DNA of 64,000 bases, taken from positions 1 through 64,000 of the forward strand of contig CANJBQ010000001.1 in NCBI GenBank assembly GCA_947472645.1. The letters are read 5' to 3'. Shown in pieces: positions 3,913-27,610 of this stretch (positions within the stretch are counted from its first letter, which is position 1; each line of letters opens with the position of its first letter). The notes beneath the pieces are model-generated. The model worked only from the letters and a program-made list of their open reading frames with translations. It had not been told where the DNA came from and did not search any database. Origin of the DNA: Burkholderiaceae bacterium. Its GTDB lineage: Bacteria > Pseudomonadota > Gammaproteobacteria > Burkholderiales > Burkholderiaceae. The translations under genes and the position numbers were made by a program.

Positions 3913-4218
3913 ATGATTATAAAACATCGCCTTATCGATCAAGAAATACAACAATTATCCAAAGAAATAGGTGAAAAAATACGCCAAGAGCGAAAGCTTG
4001 CAGGTTTAACCTTAGTTGATACTGCTCAGGCATTGGGTATTGCGAAACAAACTTTGTCCGATCTTGAGACGGCTAGAAAACCTGTTGGATTGATGATCGT
4101 CCTGATGGTTTGTCGTCAGCTTGGCATCACACTATTACCAATCCCAACAGGGCAAGTGAAACAAGTTCAAAAGTATCTTGTGCATCTCCATTTAATCAGT
4201 GAGGACGTAGATGCTTAG
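3913..4218 (+). CDS. hipB: HipB-like antitoxin, XRE-family repressor
   Basis: This is the DNA-binding antitoxin of the first HipBA module. The 101-residue protein has an XRE helix-turn-helix at about residues 20-70: EKIRQERKLAGLTLVDTAQ, then ALGIAKQTLSDLETARKP. The gene overlaps hipA by 8 bp. The start at 3913 has only AGGA three bases upstream, so the message may be leaderless or the true start could be slightly downstream. Three palindromic operators lie immediately upstream and predict autorepression. Confidence 0.88.
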   Translation: MIIKHRLIDQEIQQLSKEIGEKIRQERKLAGLTLVDTAQALGIAKQTLSDLETARKPVGLMIVLMVCRQLGITLLPIPTGQVKQVQKYLVHLHLISEDVDA

Positions 4219-5548
4219 TTTTACTATTTATTTAGATCTGGAACCAATAGGCTTGCTTTCACACGACTCCGGCAATAATTTATTTGCGTTTGAATATCAT
4301 CAAGAGTGGACACATCAAGAAGGGGCATATCCCATATGTCCTCTCATCCCCCTTTTAGCCCCAGAGCATGAATCTAGAGAAAAACATAGTGCCATTGTGA
4401 GGCAATTTTTCGAAAATTTATTACCAGAGGGGAGTGCACTCGATCAAGTATCTATATTTCATCAGATATCTAAATCGAATTTGATGGGCTTAATGTTAGT
4501 TTTAGGTGCTGAGACGTCTGGAGCTCTTCGAATTGGTACTGACCCTATACAAGTGCCAGCTTCAGAGCTTCAGTTACGTCTAATTACACCCGCAGAACTT
4601 GAGAATAGAATTGTACAAAGACAAGAGATACCTTTTACAGTCTGGGATGGAAAAGTACGATTATCGATTGCTGGATTTCAGGATAAGATTGCCATCTATA
4701 AAAAGAATGACCAATGGTATTTGGTCGATGGCCCAGAACTTGCATCAACATGGATTGTCAAACCAACACCTGAGCGTAAAACCCTAAAGAGCCTACCGGA
4801 GAACGAGTTTATTTGCATGAGTTTAGCCAAACTCATAGATATTCCTGTTGCAACAGTGGAGTTAGTTCGGATACCCAGTCCTGTACTCCTTGTCAAAAGA
4901 TTTGATCGCAAAGAATTAACAACAAGAGTCAAAAGATTACATATCATCGATGCTTGTCAAGCCTTAGGACGTTCGTCTAGCATGAAATATGAGAGACCTT
5001 ATGGCCATTCGAGGGATGTAAAGGATATTCGTGATGGGGTGAATTATTGTGATTTATTTGATTTAATGAAGAACGCAATACAGCCGATAAAAGATCGTTT
5101 GCAATTGTTACGTTGGGCAATTTATCAAATCTACATTGGTAATAGTGATGCCCATGGCAAGAATATTTCTTTTTTCATGAATGAAAAAGGTATCAGTATG
5201 GCTCCAGCTTATGACCTAGTATGTATCCCAGCCTTAGGTGATTCAACCCTCAGTCATACATTTTCTATGGCGATAGGAGATGCATTTAGGGTTGAGGATA
5301 TTACTATCGAGGATATTAGGGAGTTTGCAATACAGAGCGGTTTAGCTCAAAAAGTTGTCTTTCAGGAATTCTCTAAGATGGGTAAAAAATTACTTGAAAA
5401 GTTTTCTGGTTTAGAGGAGCTTGCAAATCATGAGCAAATAGATCTAAAAATCGTTCACTCGATTCAAATAGAGATTCAAAAAAACATTTACATCATCACC
5501 AAGCTTTTAGAAATAAATCATAGATTGAATATTTACCTTGTAAATTAG
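4211..5548 (+). CDS. hipA: HipA-family Ser/Thr kinase toxin
   Basis: HipA kinases phosphorylate targets such as GltX and induce dormancy. The 445-residue protein has the HipA N-terminal domain and the HipA_C kinase core. Visible are SIAGFQDKIAIY (152-163; the Ser is in the position of the autophosphorylated Ser150 of E. coli), LLVKRFDR (226-233), NSDAHGKN (311-318, catalytic loop) and PAYDLV (332-337, metal-binding Asp). All key residues are present and length matches E. coli HipA (440), so it should be active. It overlaps hipB by 8 bp; its stop codon lies inside an 18-bp-stem hairpin. Confidence 0.93.
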   Translation: MLSFTIYLDLEPIGLLSHDSGNNLFAFEYHQEWTHQEGAYPICPLIPLLAPEHESREKHSAIVRQFFENLLPEGSALDQVSIFHQISKSNLMGLMLVLGAETSGALRIGTDPIQVPASELQLRLITPAELENRIVQRQEIPFTVWDGKVRLSIAGFQDKIAIYKKNDQWYLVDGPELASTWIVKPTPERKTLKSLPENEFICMSLAKLIDIPVATVELVRIPSPVLLVKRFDRKELTTRVKRLHIIDACQALGRSSSMKYERPYGHSRDVKDIRDGVNYCDLFDLMKNAIQPIKDRLQLLRWAIYQIYIGNSDAHGKNISFFMNEKGISMAPAYDLVCIPALGDSTLSHTFSMAIGDAFRVEDITIEDIREFAIQSGLAQKVVFQEFSKMGKKLLEKFSGLEELANHEQIDLKIVHSIQIEIQKNIYIITKLLEINHRLNIYLVN

Positions 5549-7694: not shown

Positions 7695-7937
7695 TTATTT
7701 CAACCCAAATAATGATGCAATTTCAGAGGCGCCCAAGACATCAAAATCATCCGGAACAATAGATTGCCCCTCAAGTAGACCTATTCGATTTTTATGAAGA
7801 GATGCGTCTTGAGAGATGCGACTCACTTTAACGAGGGGTTTGCCAGCTTTAGCAATAATAAAATCTTCACCGAGCATAGCTAGCTCGATGAGTCGAGATA
7901 AGTGCGTCTTTGCTTCATGGATATTAAAAGTCTTCAT
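7695..7937 (-). CDS. Phd/YefM-type antitoxin of the PIN module
   Basis: This is the antitoxin and likely autorepressor for the PIN toxin just downstream. The N-terminus MKTFNIHEAKTHLSRLIELA and the following GEDFIIAKAGKPLVKVSRI are typical Phd/YefM sequence. The ATG at 7937 was preferred to the GTG two codons upstream because GGAG lies 5 bases before it. The C-terminal part LGASEIASLFGLK is the probable toxin-binding tail. A TTAAACTA direct repeat and palindrome upstream may be its operator. Confidence 0.85.
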   Translation of the reverse strand: MKTFNIHEAKTHLSRLIELAMLGEDFIIAKAGKPLVKVSRISQDASLHKNRIGLLEGQSIVPDDFDVLGASEIASLFGLK

Positions 7938-7962
7938 GATCACTCCAAAAAAACTACATAAA

Positions 7963-7990
7963 TTAAACTAGATTGATTAAACTAAGTTTA
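7963..7990. promoter_or_regulatory. Likely operator of the Phd/PIN module
   Basis: TTAAACTA occurs twice, 14 bp apart (7963-7970 and 7977-7984). The second copy is part of the 13-bp palindrome TAAACT-A-AGTTTA (7978-7990). It lies 26 to 53 bp upstream of the antitoxin ATG, where an autorepressor site is expected. Inference from position and symmetry only. Confidence 0.5.
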
Positions 7991-8275
7991 TTATAATACT
8001 TAAAGTTTATCGATGCAAATATAAACGTATCCTTATGATGAATGAGTCGTAGGTATCAAAAGATTGAATTTGTATTAAAGAATGTTTTATAAGGCTTATT
8101 CTATTAAGGAGTCCTTGAATAGAGCCAAAAGTAACCACTGCGGTAATAACCGTAGTAACAAATGAAGTTTTAACATGACAAACTTTTGACAAATTTTCTT
8201 GGAGGACAAGGCATACTTGGACTTGAAGTATAGGTCATCAAGTACATACCAATTTGATATCTTCGTTAAAGGATA
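7991..8275. other. Intergenic stretch with no recognised gene
   Basis: This AT-rich stretch lies between the divergent antitoxin promoter and the 3' end of the second hipA-like gene. It has a short open frame on the minus strand (61 codons) with no recognisable motif or start context. No hairpin terminator, RNA gene or insertion sequence end was seen. It may be debris from past insertions. Confidence 0.4.
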
Positions 8276-9526
8276 TTAGTGCAAAAGTTCTTTACTGATG
8301 GCGTTTAATTTTTTAGCCCACTTCTTAGCACCACTTTTACTTGCTCCCAAAGCGACAGATTTGGCTTCAAACTGGCTAGCAGCAGATAAGGCATTTTCAA
8401 TGGCATCAAGAGCAACAATCGGAGATAAATGAATACTCTGAGCAAATTTCAATAAATGATCTCGGGTGATATTTTGCCCTTCACCAGAAATGGTCATTGT
8501 GTGCCAGCCATTAGGACCATCGCACGGGCATAAATCAAAGGCAGGGGATAATTTCCAAGAACCTTGTTGATCCATACAAAATGCAAAGTTTTTACTATGG
8601 TCATCTCTGATCGACAGAGCTACATTAAAACAAGCTTGGCGAAAAATCATTTCGCTCTGAGGTTCACCAGATAATCTTCCGGAAAGTCGAACAAGGTCGA
8701 TATAGTCGAGATGAGGTATTCGGAAGTTATCATTGAGTAATGCCGCCACACTTTGTGTATGGACTCGCTCTCCGGACGCTGTGCGATCGAATCGTTTGAC
8801 AGCAAGAGCGGTTGCCTGATCTTGTAATAAAAGGGATGCGCTTGCTGCATGAATACCATGCACTTGTGCTAGAGATAAGCAAGCGGCCTCATAAAAGGGT
8901 TCATTTTGATCGCCATAGGCAGGGGCGAACTTCAGTAAAGACGGAATAAAACCACTAGGATTTTTAAAGGTGTCGCCTAAGATGATATTTTTACCATCTT
9001 CTGTTAATGAGGCCCAAAATTTGGGGCGTGCTCCAAGAGCGGAACCACCAGCCTTGATTGCCGATGGTGGAATAACTTGAATGATTTCTGCTTCGGTCAA
9101 TTTGGCGAATTCAGCAATCTCAGGCAGTTGGTTTAAAGCGCGATGATCCGTGCTATCGATGATCGGCTTATAACTGAGTGCTCCAACGCCATGTTGTCCA
9201 ACCCAAGCCAAACGATGTAAAGGATTGATCTCAGCTAAAGATAGTCCTGCGCGGCTGAGCCCTTGATTCATCAGTCGTAAACCAAACCCATCGGGTATTG
9301 AGTCAGCAAACAAACCATGTAACCCATCAAAAGGCGTATGAGGTGCTTTAATGACTGAAAGTTGAAAAGGAAGGTGAATGGGGGATAAGTTGAGGGTGGA
9401 ACTGACAAAGTCTTTATCCCAAGCAAAAGCAACAAGCCGCTCACTAGCCACCCAAAAACATTCTCCAATCAAGGTGGGCAGAGTATTACCCCCAAAATCT
9501 AACCATACTTGGAGCCTCGAACTCAT
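8276..9526 (-). CDS. Second HipA-family kinase toxin
   Basis: This 416-residue HipA-type kinase is clearly divergent from the one at 4211. It has the HipA N-terminal domain, then GGSALGARPK (160-169; the ATP/regulatory loop, here with GARPK), LAVKRFDR (241-248), RDDHSKNFAF (307-316; catalytic loop with D and N) and LSPAFDLCP (326-334; metal-binding Asp). It overlaps its XRE partner by 4 bp. All catalytic residues are visible, so activity is likely; the substrate is unknown and may differ from that of HipA no. 1. Confidence 0.9.
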   Translation of the reverse strand: MSSRLQVWLDFGGNTLPTLIGECFWVASERLVAFAWDKDFVSSTLNLSPIHLPFQLSVIKAPHTPFDGLHGLFADSIPDGFGLRLMNQGLSRAGLSLAEINPLHRLAWVGQHGVGALSYKPIIDSTDHRALNQLPEIAEFAKLTEAEIIQVIPPSAIKAGGSALGARPKFWASLTEDGKNIILGDTFKNPSGFIPSLLKFAPAYGDQNEPFYEAACLSLAQVHGIHAASASLLLQDQATALAVKRFDRTASGERVHTQSVAALLNDNFRIPHLDYIDLVRLSGRLSGEPQSEMIFRQACFNVALSIRDDHSKNFAFCMDQQGSWKLSPAFDLCPCDGPNGWHTMTISGEGQNITRDHLLKFAQSIHLSPIVALDAIENALSAASQFEAKSVALGASKSGAKKWAKKLNAISKELLH

Positions 9527-9831
9527 GAACGTATCCTTACTCTAGAGTGTTGTGTCCGGGCAGCTTCTATGCGCTCAATCTCGTCGAGAGTTTGAGCTTG
9601 TGGTTGACAGGCGTCCCAAATAGAGGAGCCAAGCCCTAAAGCTTTGGCAACCCTAATAAAGGTAATGAATTCAACATTTCCACCATTCTCTAAGTTTTTA
9701 ATAGCTTGTAGGCTTGCGCCACTTAATCGGGAAAGATCTTCTTGACGAATACCCAGCCCTACACGGATCAGGCGTAAATTTTTGCCAATTTCCAGCATGA
9801 TTTCTGAAGGAGTGAGCAAGTTATAAATCAT
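9523..9831 (-). CDS. XRE-family repressor/antitoxin of the second HipBA module
   Basis: The 102-residue protein has an XRE helix-turn-helix at about residues 15-70: IGKNLRLIRVGLGIRQEDLS, then RLSGASLQAIKNLENGGN. Its stop overlaps the start of the HipA-like kinase by 4 bp. The C-terminus ends in a basic RVRIRS. Repeats of TAAGATCTyTTA lie 9 to 60 bp upstream of its ATG and are the likely binding sites. Confidence 0.85.
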   Translation of the reverse strand: MIYNLLTPSEIMLEIGKNLRLIRVGLGIRQEDLSRLSGASLQAIKNLENGGNVEFITFIRVAKALGLGSSIWDACQPQAQTLDEIERIEAARTQHSRVRIRS

Positions 9832-10680: not shown

Positions 10681-12615
10681 TCATCTGATAAAAGAAGTGG
10701 AGTTTTTGATACTCTCGATTAGTTCGATGATTTGGCTTGTTTTCGTGTTGGGAGAGATAGTAATTTCAGAGTTTTGTGGCACTTCGTAGACTGAATCAAT
10801 TCCCGTAAAGTTCTTAATTAATCCTTGTCTTGCCTTCTTATAAAGTCCTTTAGGATCTCTTTTTTCGCACTCCTCTAGGGGGGTGTCCACAAAGATTTGC
10901 ATAAATTCTCCAACTTGGAACTTGCTTCTAGCCATTTCCCGATCCTTTTGGAATGGGGAGATGAAGGTCACCAGTACGATTAAACCAGCATCCACCATGA
11001 GCTTAGCCACTTCGGCTACTCGGCGAATATTCTCAATGCGAGCAGTCTCAGTAAAGCCAAGATCATGGTTTAGGCCATGGCGAACATTATCGCCATCCAA
11101 AATGTAGGTGCGTTTACCAATTTTGTAGAGTTCTTTTTCCAGGGCATTAGCAATTGTTGACTTGCCAGAGCCCGATAGCCCTGTAAACCAAAGGCACATG
11201 GGTTTTTGTTGGTTGAGAGCAGCTCTAGCCTCTTTATTGATCTCAAAGAACTGGTTTTGGATATTGCTCGAGCGCCTTAAGGCAAAGCGTATCATGCCAG
11301 CTCCCACGGTATTGTTCGTGAGGCGATCAATAAGAATAAAGCCACCTAGGGCAGGGTTATCGTGATAAGCATCAAAGACCAGAGGTTTAGCCGTGGCAAT
11401 ATTGCACACGGCCACTGCATTAAGATCCAATTTATCAGCTGCGAGCTTTTCTAGGTTATTGATGTTGACCTGATGCTTAATTTTGCTAATGGTGGCATTC
11501 ACTGTTTGGGTGGCCAATTTGATAAAATAGCTTCTGCCTGAATATAAAGGCTCTTCACTCATCCAAACGATTTGTGCATCAAATTGATCTGCAACCGTAG
11601 CGGTTTGCTGAGGTTTACTGAGAACATCTCCCCGTGAGATATCGACTTCTTCATTAAGCGTTAAGGTGATTGCTTGCCCAGCAATGGCCCGTTCAAGAAA
11701 GCCGTCTTTGGTCACAATCGATTTAATGGTAGTTTCTTTGCCGGAGGGTTGAATGCGTATGGCATCGCCCAGGCTAATTTCTCCAGAGATAACCGTGCCA
11801 GCAAACCCTCTAAATTCATGATTAGGACGATTAACCCATTGCACAGGCATCCTAAATGCTCGCTTGAGGGCTTGATCTTGTTCTAATGGTATGGACTCCA
11901 AAAGCCCTATCAGGGTTGGCCCGTGATACCAACTCATCAGATTGCTATGAATGGTGATGTTATCTCCCGATAAAGCAGACATCGGGATGAAGGTGATTTT
12001 TAATTGCTCAACTCGCGCGTGATGATTTTTTTTTAACTCTTTTACAAACTCTTGATAGCTATTAACAATTGCTTCATATGTAGATTTATCGTAATTGACT
12101 AAATCCATTTTATTTACAGCTAACACGATATGTTTAATACCCATGAGGGATACGAGATAGGTATGACGTTTAGTTTGAGTCAAGACTCCTTGTCGAGCGT
12201 CGACTAGAACAATCGCTAAATCAGCTGTCGAGGCACCTGTGACCATATTGCGGGTGTACTGTTCATGTCCTGGTGTATCGGCTACAATAAACTTGCGCTT
12301 GTCTGTTGAGAAAAATCGATAAGCCACATCAATGGTGATTCCTTGCTCGCGCTCGGCCGCTAAGCCATCCACTAAAAGGGCAAAGTCGAGATTTTGTCCT
12401 TGAGTCCCCATCTTTTTAGAATCCGCTTCAAGCGCTTCTAATTGATCCTCAAATAACATTTTGGATTCATAAAGGAGACGGCCAATAAGGGTGCTTTTGC
12501 CATCATCGACGCTGCCACACGTAATGAAACGCAATAAAGTTTTATGTTGATGGTTTTTGAGATAAGCCTCGATATCGTCATTAATCGAATCAGCGAATTG
12601 ACTTTGGTTTGCCAT
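10681..12615 (-). CDS. cysNC: Bifunctional sulfate adenylyltransferase subunit 1 / adenylylsulfate kinase
   Basis: CysN is the GTPase subunit that, with CysD, makes APS from ATP and sulfate; the fused CysC domain phosphorylates APS to PAPS. In the 644 residues the GTPase motifs are GSVDDGKST (34-42), [12 protein letters not shown] (113-124) and NKMDL (168-172), followed by EF-Tu-like beta barrels. The APS kinase domain starts near residue 470 with P-loop GLSGSGKST (479-487), [10 protein letters not shown] (508-517) and [10 protein letters not shown]. The ATG overlaps the cysD stop (TAATG), so translation is coupled. PAPS could feed sulfite reduction or the sulfotransferase at 26702. Confidence 0.95.
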
Positions 12616-14399
12616 TAGAAGTATCCCTCTTGTTTTTTCTTTTCCATCGAAGCGGCACCATCATGATCAATCACGCGACCTTGGCGCTCAGAAGTTTTAG
12701 TGAGTAACATTTCTTGAATAATCTCGGGAAGGGTAGATGCTTGGGATTCCACTGCGCCCGTTAAGGGATAGCAGCCTAAGGTTCTAAAGCGTACTCGTTT
12801 GATCATCGGAATTTCACCAGGAGCGAGCGGCATACGATCATCATCAACCATAATCAGAGTGCCATCACGTTCTACCACTGGACGCTCTTGGGCAAAATAC
12901 AGGTGAACAATGGGAATATTTTCCAGATAAATGTATTGCCAAATATCAAGTTCGGTCCAGTTTGAAATCGGAAAAACCCGAATGCCCTCACTTTTATGTT
13001 TCTTAGTGTTATACAAATTCCACAGCTCGGGGCGCTGTTGCTTAGGATCCCAGTGATGTTGGCTATTGCGAAATGAAAAAATACGCTCTTTGGCGCGAGA
13101 CTTTTCTTCATCACGCCGTGCACCACCAAATGCCACATCAAAACCATGTTGATCTAAAGCTTGTTTTAAGCCTTGAGTCTTCATCACGTCGGTATGAATT
13201 TGTGAGCCATGGGTAAAGGGATTGATCCCTTGTGCCAAGCCATCTGGGTTGATGTGGGTAATTAGATCAAACCTATGGTTTTTTACCATCTGCTCCCGAA
13301 AAGCATACATATCCTTAAACTTCCAACCAGTATCGACATGTAATAAAGGAAAGGGTGGCGGTGCAGGATAAAACGCTTTCAGTGCTAAGTGCAGCATCAC
13401 AGCACTATCTTTTCCAATGGAGTACAGCATCACCGGCTTATCGGCTTCGGCAACTACTTCACGCATGATGTGAATGCTCTCAGCTTCAAGGCGTTGCAAG
13501 TGAGTTAAGATTTTTGAATCAACTGACGTAGTGGTTTCTCGCTGATCTGGTGAGGGGCAGGAATATGACAAGGCGGATAGTTTATTGTCGGAAGATTTGA
13601 TATTTTTTTGACTTGCTAAATTAGCAGCTTTTGGAACATTGCCTTTGGAGGCTCTCTTGAGTAATACCAACTTAGAGTTTTTTGCCAGCCATTCATAAAG
13701 TGTGGGGGTGTATTGCAATCCCGCAAACTGTAATCGCAAGGCATAACCTTTTGGGTTAGCTTCCAGTATCTTTTGGCAAAAGTCTATATAGTCTTTTTCA
13801 ATGAGCGGGTGCTTGTAAAAGCGCCAAGATAGTTTTCCTCGGCGATCTTGTGCAAAGAGCAAACAATGTTTTAGATGGTTTTTATTTTGTAGTGGTATTT
13901 CATGCTCTCCGCCACTAAACACTACAAATTTGCTTGATGCCGCTTCTTCTAAAAAGTCATCTTCAATAGCGGGAGGATTAGTAGGTAGCCATCCCCATTC
14001 TTTAAATAGGCGCATGGCAGTGCGGTTATTAATAGGTTTTGCATTCCCTCGGTGATTTGCCTTGATAAGCCATTGAGCAAGATGCTCAAACGTCCAGAGA
14101 TGATCTAATTTGCTACTAAATAATTGCTCCCAGATTGCTCCCCATTGATTTGCATAGAGAGAGCTAGCCTCCGCTTTGGTTTTTGAGGGGCGGCCAACTC
14201 TCATTGATTTTACGGCTTGTATACCTTCCGCCTCATAAATTTTATTAAGGGCAATGATGGTAGGTGTACTAAGTCCAGTTTCTGCTTTAACTTGAGCTAA
14301 GGTTGATCCTGATTGACGCAAATGAATAGCCCTGATCCGAAGGTCAATGCTAGTAGTATCTCTACCAGCCACGCTTTTGGGTTGATTGACATCTCTCAT
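12615..14399 (-). CDS. cysD: Sulfate adenylyltransferase subunit 2 with N-terminal degenerate transposase-like extension
   Basis: Residues about 292-594 are a complete CysD (302 residues, the normal size): [16 protein letters not shown], the PP-motif [15 protein letters not shown] (324-338), [14 protein letters not shown] and [16 protein letters not shown]. Residues 1-290 are extra. They read as a helix-turn-helix (18-62) ending in VGRPSK, a winged helix (84-137), and a segment like an IS630 DDE domain (157-250: [42 protein letters not shown]) in which the catalytic acidic positions are missing. The frame is open throughout. No in-frame ATG lies between codon 129 and codon 312, inside CysD, which favours a real fusion protein; a TTG near 13571 is a weak alternative start. 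Confidence 0.88.
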
Positions 14400-14443
14400 T
14401 TATATATTAAACATTAAAACCCTTAAGTATGTAAAGTATTTTT

Positions 14444-14493: not shown

Positions 14494-15279
14494 GTGGATT
14501 TGGAGCTTGAATTGTTGATATTGGCTGGTTTTTTAGTTGGCGTAATTGTTGGTTTAACTGGTGTAGGTGGTGGCGCCTTAATGACCCCCTTGCTTCTTTT
14601 TATTTTTGGGGTTGCACCAGTGACTGCCATTGGAACCGATCTTTGGTTTGCTGCAATTACCAAGATGGCAGCAGGTAAAATGCATCATGCCAAAGGCTTG
14701 ATTGACTGGCAGATATTATGCCGTATGTGGTCAGGTAGCTTGCCTGCCGCCATCATTATGATTTTATTGATGCACAATGGTTTTGTTGCTTTAAATGTGA
14801 GCTTTCTAAAAACAGCTGTGGCTATTGCGATATTGATTACAGCATTGAGTATGCTCTTTCAAAAACATCTCCATGGACTTGGTAAAAATTTGCGAATCAG
14901 CGATGCTGAGCACTTTAAAAAATGGCAGCCGATATTAACCGTTATAGCCGGTGTCATACTAGGCACTTTGGTTACCCTTACTTCTATTGGGGCGGGTGCA
15001 GTTGGTGTAGTAATGTTAACTTACCTTTATCCCTTAAGACTTACACCTGCTAGATTGGTTGCAACAGATATTGTTCACGCCATTCCCTTAGCAATGTTTG
15101 CTGGACTAGGGCATTTATTCATTGGTAACATTGATTTTGGCTTACTTGGATGGCTGCTTATGGGATCTATTCCTGGGGTATTGATTGGCGCGACCTTCTC
15201 AAGCAGATTACCGCAAGCACCATTACGCATCGCTATTGCAATCGTACTCGGTTTAGTAGCTCTAAAGCTTCTTTTATAA
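14494..15279 (+). CDS. TauE/SafE-family permease, probable sulfur-oxyanion transporter
   Basis: The 261-residue protein has about eight hydrophobic segments in the TSUP (TauE/SafE) pattern. The N-terminal GFLVGVIVGLTGVGGGALMTPLLL and the mid-protein ILGTLVTLTSIGAGAVG with LTPARLVATDIVHA are the family's repeated signatures. TSUP proteins export sulfite or sulfoacetate or take up sulfate or thiosulfate; beside cysDNC a sulfate or sulfite role is likely. The GTG at 14494 is weakly supported; a TTG at 14512 has GGAG six bases before it. It is transcribed divergently from cysD. Confidence 0.85.
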   Translation: MDLELELLILAGFLVGVIVGLTGVGGGALMTPLLLFIFGVAPVTAIGTDLWFAAITKMAAGKMHHAKGLIDWQILCRMWSGSLPAAIIMILLMHNGFVALNVSFLKTAVAIAILITALSMLFQKHLHGLGKNLRISDAEHFKKWQPILTVIAGVILGTLVTLTSIGAGAVGVVMLTYLYPLRLTPARLVATDIVHAIPLAMFAGLGHLFIGNIDFGLLGWLLMGSIPGVLIGATFSSRLPQAPLRIAIAIVLGLVALKLLL

Positions 15280-15359
15280 ACCAGTTGCTGAACGCCCAAC
15301 AAAGTTTTTTTGTCAACCAAAAATGCTACTCTGTGTCTAAGTAGCTTATGCTTATAAAG

Positions 15360-16037
15360 ATGAAAATCTCAATTCAAGCCCCTTTCCAATTGCATCCACA
15401 GCAGATAATAGATTCTATTATTCCTTTGGTAGACATGGCAGTTGTAGCAATCATGCATATATATATGAACAAGTTGATCATGGCGTTGAAATTAAGGTTG
15501 ATCAAAGCCCATTGACATAGACCGCTTTACAAGCCAATGCTATTTTGGTTGATGGCCTAAAAAAATTATGGCCAAGCATTCCAGTATTGAGTGAAGAGGG
15601 CGGTGATGTCTTGTGAGAAGGTGAGGAGCCCCCTTACTATTGGGCAATGGTGAATTTACTGTAAACGTTACGTTAATTTTTAAAGAGGATCCAGTGCTCG
15701 GTGTAGTGATGGCTCCAGCTTTTGATAAATTGTACGTTGGGTGTTGCAACACAAGCATGGCTTTTGATTGCAAAGAAATAGCGGATGACTTAACTATTGG
15801 ATTTGATCGGAAGGCGATGAAGCGGGTAAATGGGCCAACATTGAAGTCAGTAGTTTTAATAAAAAGGAGCCCCAAAGACCTATTCGGATGGCATCTAGCA
15901 GATCATATCCTTCGCCACAACTTGGGGGCTGGTTAAAGCAATTCAAAAGTTATGAGACCATTGAAGTGGGTAGTACCCTCAAGTTCTGCCTGCTAGCCGA
16001 GGGGCTGTTGGATGTTTACCCACGCTTTGGACCAACA
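15360..16037 (+). pseudogene. cysQ: Decayed 3'(2'),5'-bisphosphate nucleotidase cysQ
   Basis: CysQ removes the 3'-phosphate from PAP/PAPS. Four pieces in changing frames align to it. 15360 onward: IIDSIIPLVDMAV. 15473 onward: VDHGVEIKVDQSPLT, stop, TALQANAILVDGLKKL, then IPVLSEEGGDVL and another stop. 15640 onward: GNGEFTVNVTLI, PVLGVVMAPAFDKLYVG. 15888 onward: SSRSYPSPQLGGWL, VGSTLKFCLLAEG and DVYPRFGPT. The DPLDGT metal-binding segment expected between YYWAM and GNGEF is deleted, and the C-terminus after YPRFGPT is lost. It is certainly non-functional and lies with the sulfate-activation genes. Confidence 0.88.
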
Positions 16038-26701: not shown

Positions 26702-27610
26702 TTGAAAACTATAATTCATATTGGAGGTAATAAAACTGCAAGCACTCTACTTCAGAGAAGACTTTTTAGTAGGCATCAGTCATTGCTTTATCTTGGGGAG
26801 GATTGCTATCGTTATAAAGAATATAAGCCTATCTTAGATGCGCTTATAGCTAGCGATGATTCTTATTTCGATGAATCAAAAGCTAGAGAGATTTTTGATT
26901 CTAGATTCGCAAATCTAAATGACGATAAGACCTGCATTTATTCAAATGAAGATATTATGACCAATTCCTTTCCCTCGGTTGGGGCATCTCGATTGGCACA
27001 TTTTGCGCCAGGTGCGGAAGTGGTAATGGTAATCCGCAATCAATTAACTGTTTGGCCATCTTGGTATGCCAATCATGGCGCCTATTTAAAAAACGTACCA
27101 CGCAGATATTGGCGACGACATATTAATTTTTCGGAATGGTTAGAATACTGCTTTATGTTTCCTACCGTCACTCCAGTTGAAGCTATGAATTACAATCGTT
27201 TTTATCAAATATTTAGGAAGGTATATCCTAAAAATACGTTACATGTATTGCTTTATGAGGAATTATGTCAAAATCCAAAGAGTTATTATTCAAAATGGGC
27301 AGAAATTTTAAATATACCTGTTGAGGATATTCTCAAGTTGCTTGATGGTGTTAGTGAGCGTAGAAGAAGTTCTGGTCGGAAAGTTATTTATGAGAGGTGG
27401 ATCGACAAACTACCTTTCGGAAATTGCCTTTCGGAAATTATCTTTAGGATGATGCCTTTTGTTCCCAAATTGATAAATCAAGGTCCCCCTGCGGTGATTG
27501 ATTTGCCAGATGAGTGGATTGAAAAAATTAAGGAGCAATATCGGGATGGAAATGCAGCTTTAGCTCAGACAACTGGTATAGACTTGAAAAAGTATGGTTA
27601 TCCAATTTAG
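26702..27610 (+). CDS. Sulfotransferase-like protein (PAPS-dependent)
   Basis: The 302-residue protein starts IIHIGGNKTASTLLQRRLF (from residue 4), which matches the 5'-phosphosulfate loop of sulfotransferases, and has VVMVIRNQLTVWPSWYANHG near residue 105, matching the 3'-phosphate-binding R...S segment. LHVLLYEELCQNPKSYYSKW is also typical. It would transfer sulfate from PAPS to a glycan. PAPS could come from cysNC in the same window. The start is TTG at 26702, three bases after rfbC ends. The acceptor is unknown. Confidence 0.78.
   Translation: MKTIIHIGGNKTASTLLQRRLFSRHQSLLYLGEDCYRYKEYKPILDALIASDDSYFDESKAREIFDSRFANLNDDKTCIYSNEDIMTNSFPSVGASRLAHFAPGAEVVMVIRNQLTVWPSWYANHGAYLKNVPRRYWRRHINFSEWLEYCFMFPTVTPVEAMNYNRFYQIFRKVYPKNTLHVLLYEELCQNPKSYYSKWAEILNIPVEDILKLLDGVSERRRSSGRKVIYERWIDKLPFGNCLSEIIFRMMPFVPKLINQGPPAVIDLPDEWIEKIKEQYRDGNAALAQTTGIDLKKYGYPI

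Follow-up and report, generated by a model that had tools for sequence, protein, structure and literature searches.

Transposases of the IS630 family (NF033545; Pfam HTH_29, HTH_33 and DDE_3) are built in the order helix-turn-helix (HTH), winged helix and RNase H-like domain. CysD/NodP and CysNC/NodQ form the enzyme pair for synthesis of 3'-phosphoadenosine 5'-phosphosulfate (PAPS), and NodPQ is a sulfation system. Trigger enzymes, for example PutA, BirA and NadR, and domesticated transposases are both known kinds of protein. Here we analyze a gene in a 64,000-nucleotide stretch from a Burkholderiaceae bacterium (contig CANJBQ010000001.1, positions 1 to 64,000; hereafter the window), in which the ATP-sulfurylase subunit CysD carries an N-terminal extension of about 290 residues homologous to IS630 transposases. 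Judged from sequence comparison, the fusion is real, and its IS630-homologous part ends before the last catalytic acid. We consider it probable that this protein is an ATP-sulfurylase subunit whose domesticated, IS630-type extension serves as an autoregulatory domain.

A CysD with an IS630-derived extension

Fused genes of this kind, numbered here by locus (L), fall into two classes. Class A has an extension of about 290 residues with an HTH, a winged helix and an RNase H-like segment, and class B has one of about 185 residues that lacks the first HTH. The window gene belongs to class A, and its parts, with the element before it, are as follows.

12615..14399, minus strand: fused gene, IS630-derived N-terminal extension plus CysD (594-codon open frame, CysD models, fused homologues elsewhere)
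14400..14435, minus strand: upstream element, conserved and containing TGTTTAAT; either a promoter or a candidate operator (6/6 class A loci)
14181..14339, minus strand: first HTH, residues 21-73 (HTH_29 at E 0.012 for the window protein and at 3.8e-6 for L006; AlphaFold predicted local distance difference test (pLDDT) >90 at about residues 21-50)
13980..14138, minus strand: winged helix at about residues 88-140, in which R126 and R130 are conserved (class B/IS630 alignment; HTH_33 in IS630 relatives)
13650..13934, minus strand: RNase H-like segment without the full catalytic triad, about residues 156-250 (alignment to the IS630 DDE region; strand order in models)
12615..13523, minus strand: CysD enzyme part, residues 293-594 and stop (TIGR02039 E 1.9e-150; 1zun_A E 1.7e-152)

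A sequence-only reading of the window had described a 594-codon open frame with a CysD of normal length in its C-terminal half and no ATG between codons 129 and 312, and all three statements hold. The frame is open from ATG to stop, and CysD models match residues 288-594 (E 6.8e-164) and, for TIGR02039, residues 301-594, with full-length scores above the curated cut-offs (500.4 bits against 396.6 for TIGR02039 and 544.8 against 413 for NF009214). GTG or TTG codons do occur in the ATG-free interval, at 160, 180, 221, 228, 244, 277 and 301, and the TTG at codon 301 is the alternative start closest to the usual beginning of CysD. The fused gene is present as a single copy in its genome. That reading would have been undone by a unique, out-of-family artefact; the same fusion was found in other genomes, with 24-55% N-terminal identity, which rules such an artefact out.

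Taken alone, the N-terminal part of the window protein gives weak scores in library searches: HTH_29 at E 0.012, DUF3323 at E 0.016 (taken as chance), and 23.3 bits against transpos_IS630, below the curated cut-off of 100. Its relatives score more strongly, with L079 reaching E 7.8e-14 and the best score of 51.8 bits, and L080 E 1.4e-8 over model positions 1-256 of 299, both still below that cut-off. A class A profile aligned by hhalign to seven IS630-like frames, some of them partial, covers 225 columns (Prob 99.4, E 7.8e-22) that span the HTH, winged helix and DDE region, and retrieves genuine transposases with DDE_3 at E 2e-35. Because L079, L080 and this profile match, the assignment of the window extension to IS630 is firm.

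The catalytic center is incomplete. In the first-acid region, HWGDET of IS630 corresponds to FSGGEHE in the window, so that the acid falls on Gly164 or Glu165 in two alignments one residue apart; an Asp is kept there in L080 (WGGD) and L006 (VGTD). The second acid (LILDN in IS630) is Gln224 in the window; four of five class A proteins have lost it, and L079 retains it (VLDN). None of the five has the third, because the homology stops before it. The window protein thus lacks a complete DDE/DDD triad, and the earlier description of an IS630-type domain with a dead catalytic center stands as to origin and loss of the full triad, with the amendment that some relatives keep single acids.

Distribution and descent of the two classes

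Six class A loci were found: the window, L005, L006, L002 (shorter), L079 and L080, from the window's genome (taken to be Polynucleobacter) and three further Polynucleobacter genomes plus two genomes of another genus and family (L079, L080). The N-terminal part of the window protein was matched in 4 of 186 genomes of its genus, its own included, each time in an open frame with CysD (594, 602, 590 and 521 codons). A CysD query at E 1e-10 matched 81 of the 186, seven of them with CysD of the window's type; five of the seven have long frames, namely the four with the extension and G128 (487 codons), and the remaining CysD matches in the genus are 46-50% identical in frames of 301-425 codons. No class A genome beyond the two known was found in 5 genomes of the L079/L080 genus and 61 of the family. 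Across 399 genomes of the order, CysD of the window's type at E 1e-90 occurs in 87 genomes at 89 places, where 17 frames have 487-606 codons; 16 of these were read as carrying the extension and L077 as not. The long frames of L055, L075, L076, L077 and L078 were judged by eye to be unrelated to the extension and were left out.

Class B fused to CysD was found at 69 loci in beta-, gamma- and alphaproteobacteria, including Pseudomonas, Massilia, Delftia and Paraburkholderia, in a scan of named genomes by an 11-row class B alignment, which yielded 102 pattern hits. At 67 of the 69, the match to a 480-residue query begins close to the query's first residue and runs to residue 478 or 480; L150 and L154 are partial, and the frame of L151 is interrupted. 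None of five class B extensions searched matched Pfam. Class B aligns to class A with Prob 97.8 (91.3 with a larger set), and its AlphaFold fold is confident (pLDDT 93.4, predicted template modeling score 0.84), with two helices, a third, three strands, helix, strand, helix and strand, which is the RNase H order. Foldseek with this model has a best E of 0.0099, and its leading matches include integrases and entries that contain RNase H. A class B domain search of the 399 order genomes gave 14 strong matches. Thirteen share a frame of 487-513 codons with CysD; the 14th (G574) lies in a frame of 294 codons, and the contig holds a piece of CysD next to it. No strong stand-alone domain was seen in these genomes, where four weak hits had E 9.5e-4 to 5e-3.

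In a quick tree of 97 CysD domains, class B forms one clade (Shimodaira-Hasegawa-like approximate likelihood ratio test (SH-aLRT) 100), and a larger group, at SH-aLRT 80, unites both classes with seven unextended rows. The tree is compatible with a single origin followed by losses and equally with several separate fusions.

Class B extensions also appear to be translated and constrained, less than the enzyme, because their ratio of nonsynonymous to synonymous substitution rates (dN/dS, omega) lies well below 1 yet above that of CysD. Median omega is 0.33 for the extension and 0.11 for CysD (161 usable of 2211 pairs, with L150 and L151 dropped). In the 12 closest pairs, with N-terminal dS of 0.07-0.59, it is 0.13-0.36 for the extension versus 0.02-0.10 for CysD. 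On these rates, the class B extension is under purifying selection.

Paired inverted sites precede most class B fusions

In the 120 bp upstream of class B genes, a GCGACA dyad occurs in 44 of 55 regions after removal of six near-duplicates (expected 2.8, z 22.8), and the largest z in six shuffled sets is 6.2. The sites are two inverted 14-bp copies of GCAWAWTGCGACAA, about 89 bp apart, and the distal and proximal copies have near-identical base tables (37 loci each). These tables and the scoring matrix were made from 41 loci that have the pair at one mismatch, less four near-duplicates. A matrix scan found the pair at a spacing of 87-91 bp in 60 of 69 class B loci, the 37 training loci among them, and in 23 of the 32 outside training. 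Among spacings of 70-105 bp there were 62 pairs, 61 of which were at 87-91 bp.

Starts were parsed automatically in 63 of the 69 loci (not in L096, L103, L138, L144, L145 and L154). Of the 61 pairs, 52 lie within 260 bp upstream of a parsed start, seven lie at a cysD where start parsing failed or erred (L096, L103, L120, L138, L144, L145, L154), and one precedes the second fused cysD of L110. The last heads a sulfate-permease operon, sbp-cysT-cysW-cysA-cysD by eye (L111, 1592-7035), about 4 kb upstream of a cysD that has no site of its own. Since all 61 lie at such operons, there is no 87-91-bp pair away from a fused-cysD operon in 980 kb. The 62nd pair, with 81-bp spacing, is about 3 kb from cysD in L132. 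The contig of L110 bears two different class B fused cysD frames, 1415-2950 and 7884-9431, each with its own site pair.

The pair was found in none of 62 control loci, which span 265 kb and comprise class A, assimilatory and unextended loci, some of them repeats. It is likewise absent before 27 genes that encode the same type of CysD without an extension, 26 of them with CysN next in line; isolated sites there score as high as 12.6. The exact pattern was present in 13 of 399 genomes. Five are among 14 fusion genomes, each time directly upstream of cysD; the other eight are among 385 non-fusion genomes, with the pattern elsewhere. A reversed control pattern was found in one genome. All three loci outside the named set carry the pair (L066, L083, L084, also among the five exact-pattern fusion genomes). 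Presence of the pair also follows the putative reader: with the recognition helix [KR]RT[AT]ER intact, 54 of 61 parsed loci have it, and with the helix altered (L098, L102, L068, L071, L072), 0 of 5; Fisher values for this comparison treat related loci as independent. In L068, L071 and L072 (family f42), a divergent form of class B, other residues stand in place of the recognition-helix motif, and these loci have no site pair.

We also asked whether the sites are the terminal repeats of extant IS630 elements and rejected this, as the 32-nt repeat pair around the gene in L173 is another sequence; L170, L175 and L176 showed no repeat pair like it at the settings used.

An upstream element shared by class A genes

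The motif TGTTTAAT lies within 120 bp upstream of all six class A genes; it precedes one of 61 class B genes and none of 50 without an extension. Shuffled sequences contained it in a mean of 0.18 of 6 regions (maximum 3), and in 300 shuffled sets no 8-mer was common to more than four class A regions. The six comprise four from one genus and two from another and are not six independent cases. Even with up to 3 mismatches allowed, the wider upstream element occurs once in the window's genome. The L005 motif is part of an 18-nt inverted repeat with 94% complementarity; no inverted repeat was reported at the element in the window.

Proposed regulation by the fused protein and competing explanations

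As a mechanism, we propose that the DNA-binding helices and the RNase H-like domain without a full triad were domesticated from an IS630-type transposase. The extension would bind specific DNA sites before its own operon, and expression of the PAPS genes would thereby be tied to the protein itself, making it an autoregulatory 'trigger' enzyme. In class B, a protein that formerly paired transposon ends may now act as if bridging two operator halves, the inverted 14-bp copies; in class A, where the first HTH is retained, the motif would be TGTTTAAT beside the start codon. The RNase H-like part could act as a dimer or pairing scaffold, and the enzyme state could feed back on binding through a signal such as substrate or CysN occupancy. 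Computation shows the homology, the fusion, the class B constraint, the motifs and their association with the extension; DNA binding, a dimer or loop, repression rather than activation, and such a signal are inferences. A more specific form of the proposal is tentative and somewhat less likely than its alternatives taken together: a synapse-like autoregulator. Two inverted operator halves that resemble transposon ends, separated by 89 bp, would be brought together by the fused enzyme before its own operon, and whether they stay together would depend on the state of its ATP-sulfurylase active site. The enzyme itself would then set the PAPS supply for surface sulfation, within one protein family found in three classes of proteobacteria, and class A fusions would be the form that retains both HTH units of the transposase.

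Several observations weigh against autoregulation, above all for the window. No GCAWAWTGCGACAA pair is present in the 64 kb, no fixed paired spacing was found for class A sites, and TGTTTAAT beside the start codon is also readable as a -10 box. The omega of 0.17 between the window and L005 is unsafe at a dS near 2. Structure prediction of the window's N-terminal part yields a convincing first HTH and a poor remainder (overall pLDDT 60.8), and Foldseek with this low-confidence model gave weak matches only. For class B, nothing was found by Foldseek at E 0.001 and no direct match to IS630 (Prob 1.3). The pair is missing from nine of the 69 class B loci (L086, L087, L097, L098, L102, L107, L147, L148, L151), although the helix is intact in seven of the nine; some retain a single site, and in L148 two sites are spaced 67 bp apart. 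Among the five altered-helix loci, L068, L071 and L072 are close relatives, so the five are not independent cases. Sigma-70 scores between the class B sites are not above those of shuffles (7.41 versus 7.20) and so do not place the promoter. The case is therefore weaker for the window than for class B, where our confidence would be higher. The sequence-only reading had suggested that the DNA-binding part may have been kept, for example to place or regulate the sulfate genes: operator-like sites of class B speak for regulation, and class A offers one conserved motif that may be a promoter box.

That last point is the strongest competing explanation, although we consider it unlikely. Under it, TGTTTAAT in class A is merely a promoter element (-35 TTTACA, 17-18 bp, -10 TTTAAT, abutting the start codon) and the extension has no regulatory role there. 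The spacing fits by eye in the four Polynucleobacter genes (TTTACA or TTTACC, 17-18 bp, TTTAAT), and the lack of a fixed paired spacing in class A is as it would predict. However, the 8-mer is common to L079 and L080 of another family, which by eye have no -35 at that spacing, and in L005 the inverted repeat covers it.

Slightly less probable still is that the extension is a structural or protein-contact domain, for CysN assembly, oligomerization or channeling of PAPS to a sulfotransferase, and that an unrelated regulator binds the upstream sites. CysNC adjoins the class B fused cysD in 57 of 59 parsed loci, class B has lost the first HTH yet retains the RNase H-like part, and the extension evolves faster than CysD, all of which would suit such a role. 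Autoregulation accounts better for the absence of the pair before the unextended genes, nearly all followed by CysN, and for its loss where the recognition helix is altered, as a general regulator of sulfate genes is not expected to track the extension.

It is very improbable that the class B pair acts as RNA, as a long stem in the cysD leader. The copies are inverted and the proximal one is near the start codon, but the inner 70 bp show no visible conservation, single mismatches in one arm often have no partner change (by eye), the L111 pair is far from cysD, and Rfam is empty at the site in the 8 loci searched. Least credible is a read-through artefact with translation from near codon 301 and a relic or assembly error upstream, which the TTG there and the broken cysQ next to it in the window would favor, and against which stand the fused frames in many genomes, the low class B omega and the fact that the fused protein is the only PAPS_reduct protein of its genome.

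Genomic context and the use of PAPS

Other genes of the window that were considered are as follows.

10681..12615, minus strand: CysNC, GTPase plus adenosine 5'-phosphosulfate (APS) kinase (APS_kinase E 1.8e-69, GTP_EFTU E 4.8e-46; one-base overlap with the cysD stop)
14494..15279, plus strand: TauE/SafE-type transporter, divergent from the fused gene (Pfam TauE E 5.2e-43)
26702..27610, plus strand: sulfotransferase-like gene in a polysaccharide cluster, possible PAPS user (Sulfotransfer_3 E 1.6e-4, 22.4 bits, below the 27-bit cut-off)

The CysN partner by which a CysD is recognized is thus present as CysNC, directly adjoining the fused gene. No other match to the PAPS_reduct family was found in the window's genome, and so no CysH, with all 14 control genomes positive. 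Because no CysH was found, the CysD/CysNC pair probably makes PAPS for sulfation. In the mechanism proposed above, the enzyme part with CysNC would supply PAPS probably for sulfation of surface polysaccharide. Around class B genes, counted in 59 of the 63 parsed loci with clusters named by eye, a CysNC-type gene is nearby in 57, a CysQ-like gene in 19 and a TauE-like gene in 15, and polysaccharide and sulfotransferase-like genes each occur at up to 10.

Beside the TauE gene, a cysQ-like gene (15348-15834, plus strand) is split over three frames in the window; the start of its L005 homologue is an open frame. The window also contains a HipA-type gene (HipA_C E 3.5e-34) with a small HTH-like gene at 8276-9831 (minus strand) and a second HipA-like frame, by eye, at 4211-5548 (plus strand), both possible toxin-antitoxin loci. 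In Pseudomonas fluorescens HK44, a group II intron domain (RF01999, 79 bits) lies about 2 kb beyond the fused cysD (L106:11420-11554, minus strand).

Comparison with known systems

By titles and abstract openings, we found no report in the open-access literature of an IS630-derived domain on CysD or of the class B operator, and the curated models that match the fused proteins name the CysD half alone. In the parts consulted, a study of Pontiella treats cysDNCHIJKM and sulfotransferases and not a CysD fusion (PMC7356697). If the proposed reading is true, an enzyme has co-opted an IS630 transposase to control transcription of its own gene, and has a recognizable operator. A single gene would then allow tests of several questions: how bacteria tame the DNA binding of a transposase, how PAPS for surface sulfation is regulated independently of the synthesis of cysteine, and whether a transposase's two-end geometry can work as a switch in regulation.

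A described case of a transposase joined to a host protein is the CSB-PGBD3 fusion of primates, which affects the expression of nearby genes; unlike the fused CysD, it is eukaryotic, derives from piggyBac, arises by alternative splicing and involves no metabolic enzyme (PMC3459987). The fused gene shares with IS630 transposases the domain order and the 225 aligned columns of class A, and differs from them in lacking the full triad, in having CysD in place of the last third and in being single copy. With CysD/NodP it shares the enzyme half and the operon partner, and it differs in its N-terminal extension and in the upstream sites that accompany it. The proposed likeness to PutA, BirA and NadR is that one protein would be both enzyme and DNA-binding regulator of its own pathway; here, in contrast, the DNA-binding part is transposase-derived and the regulation is predicted.

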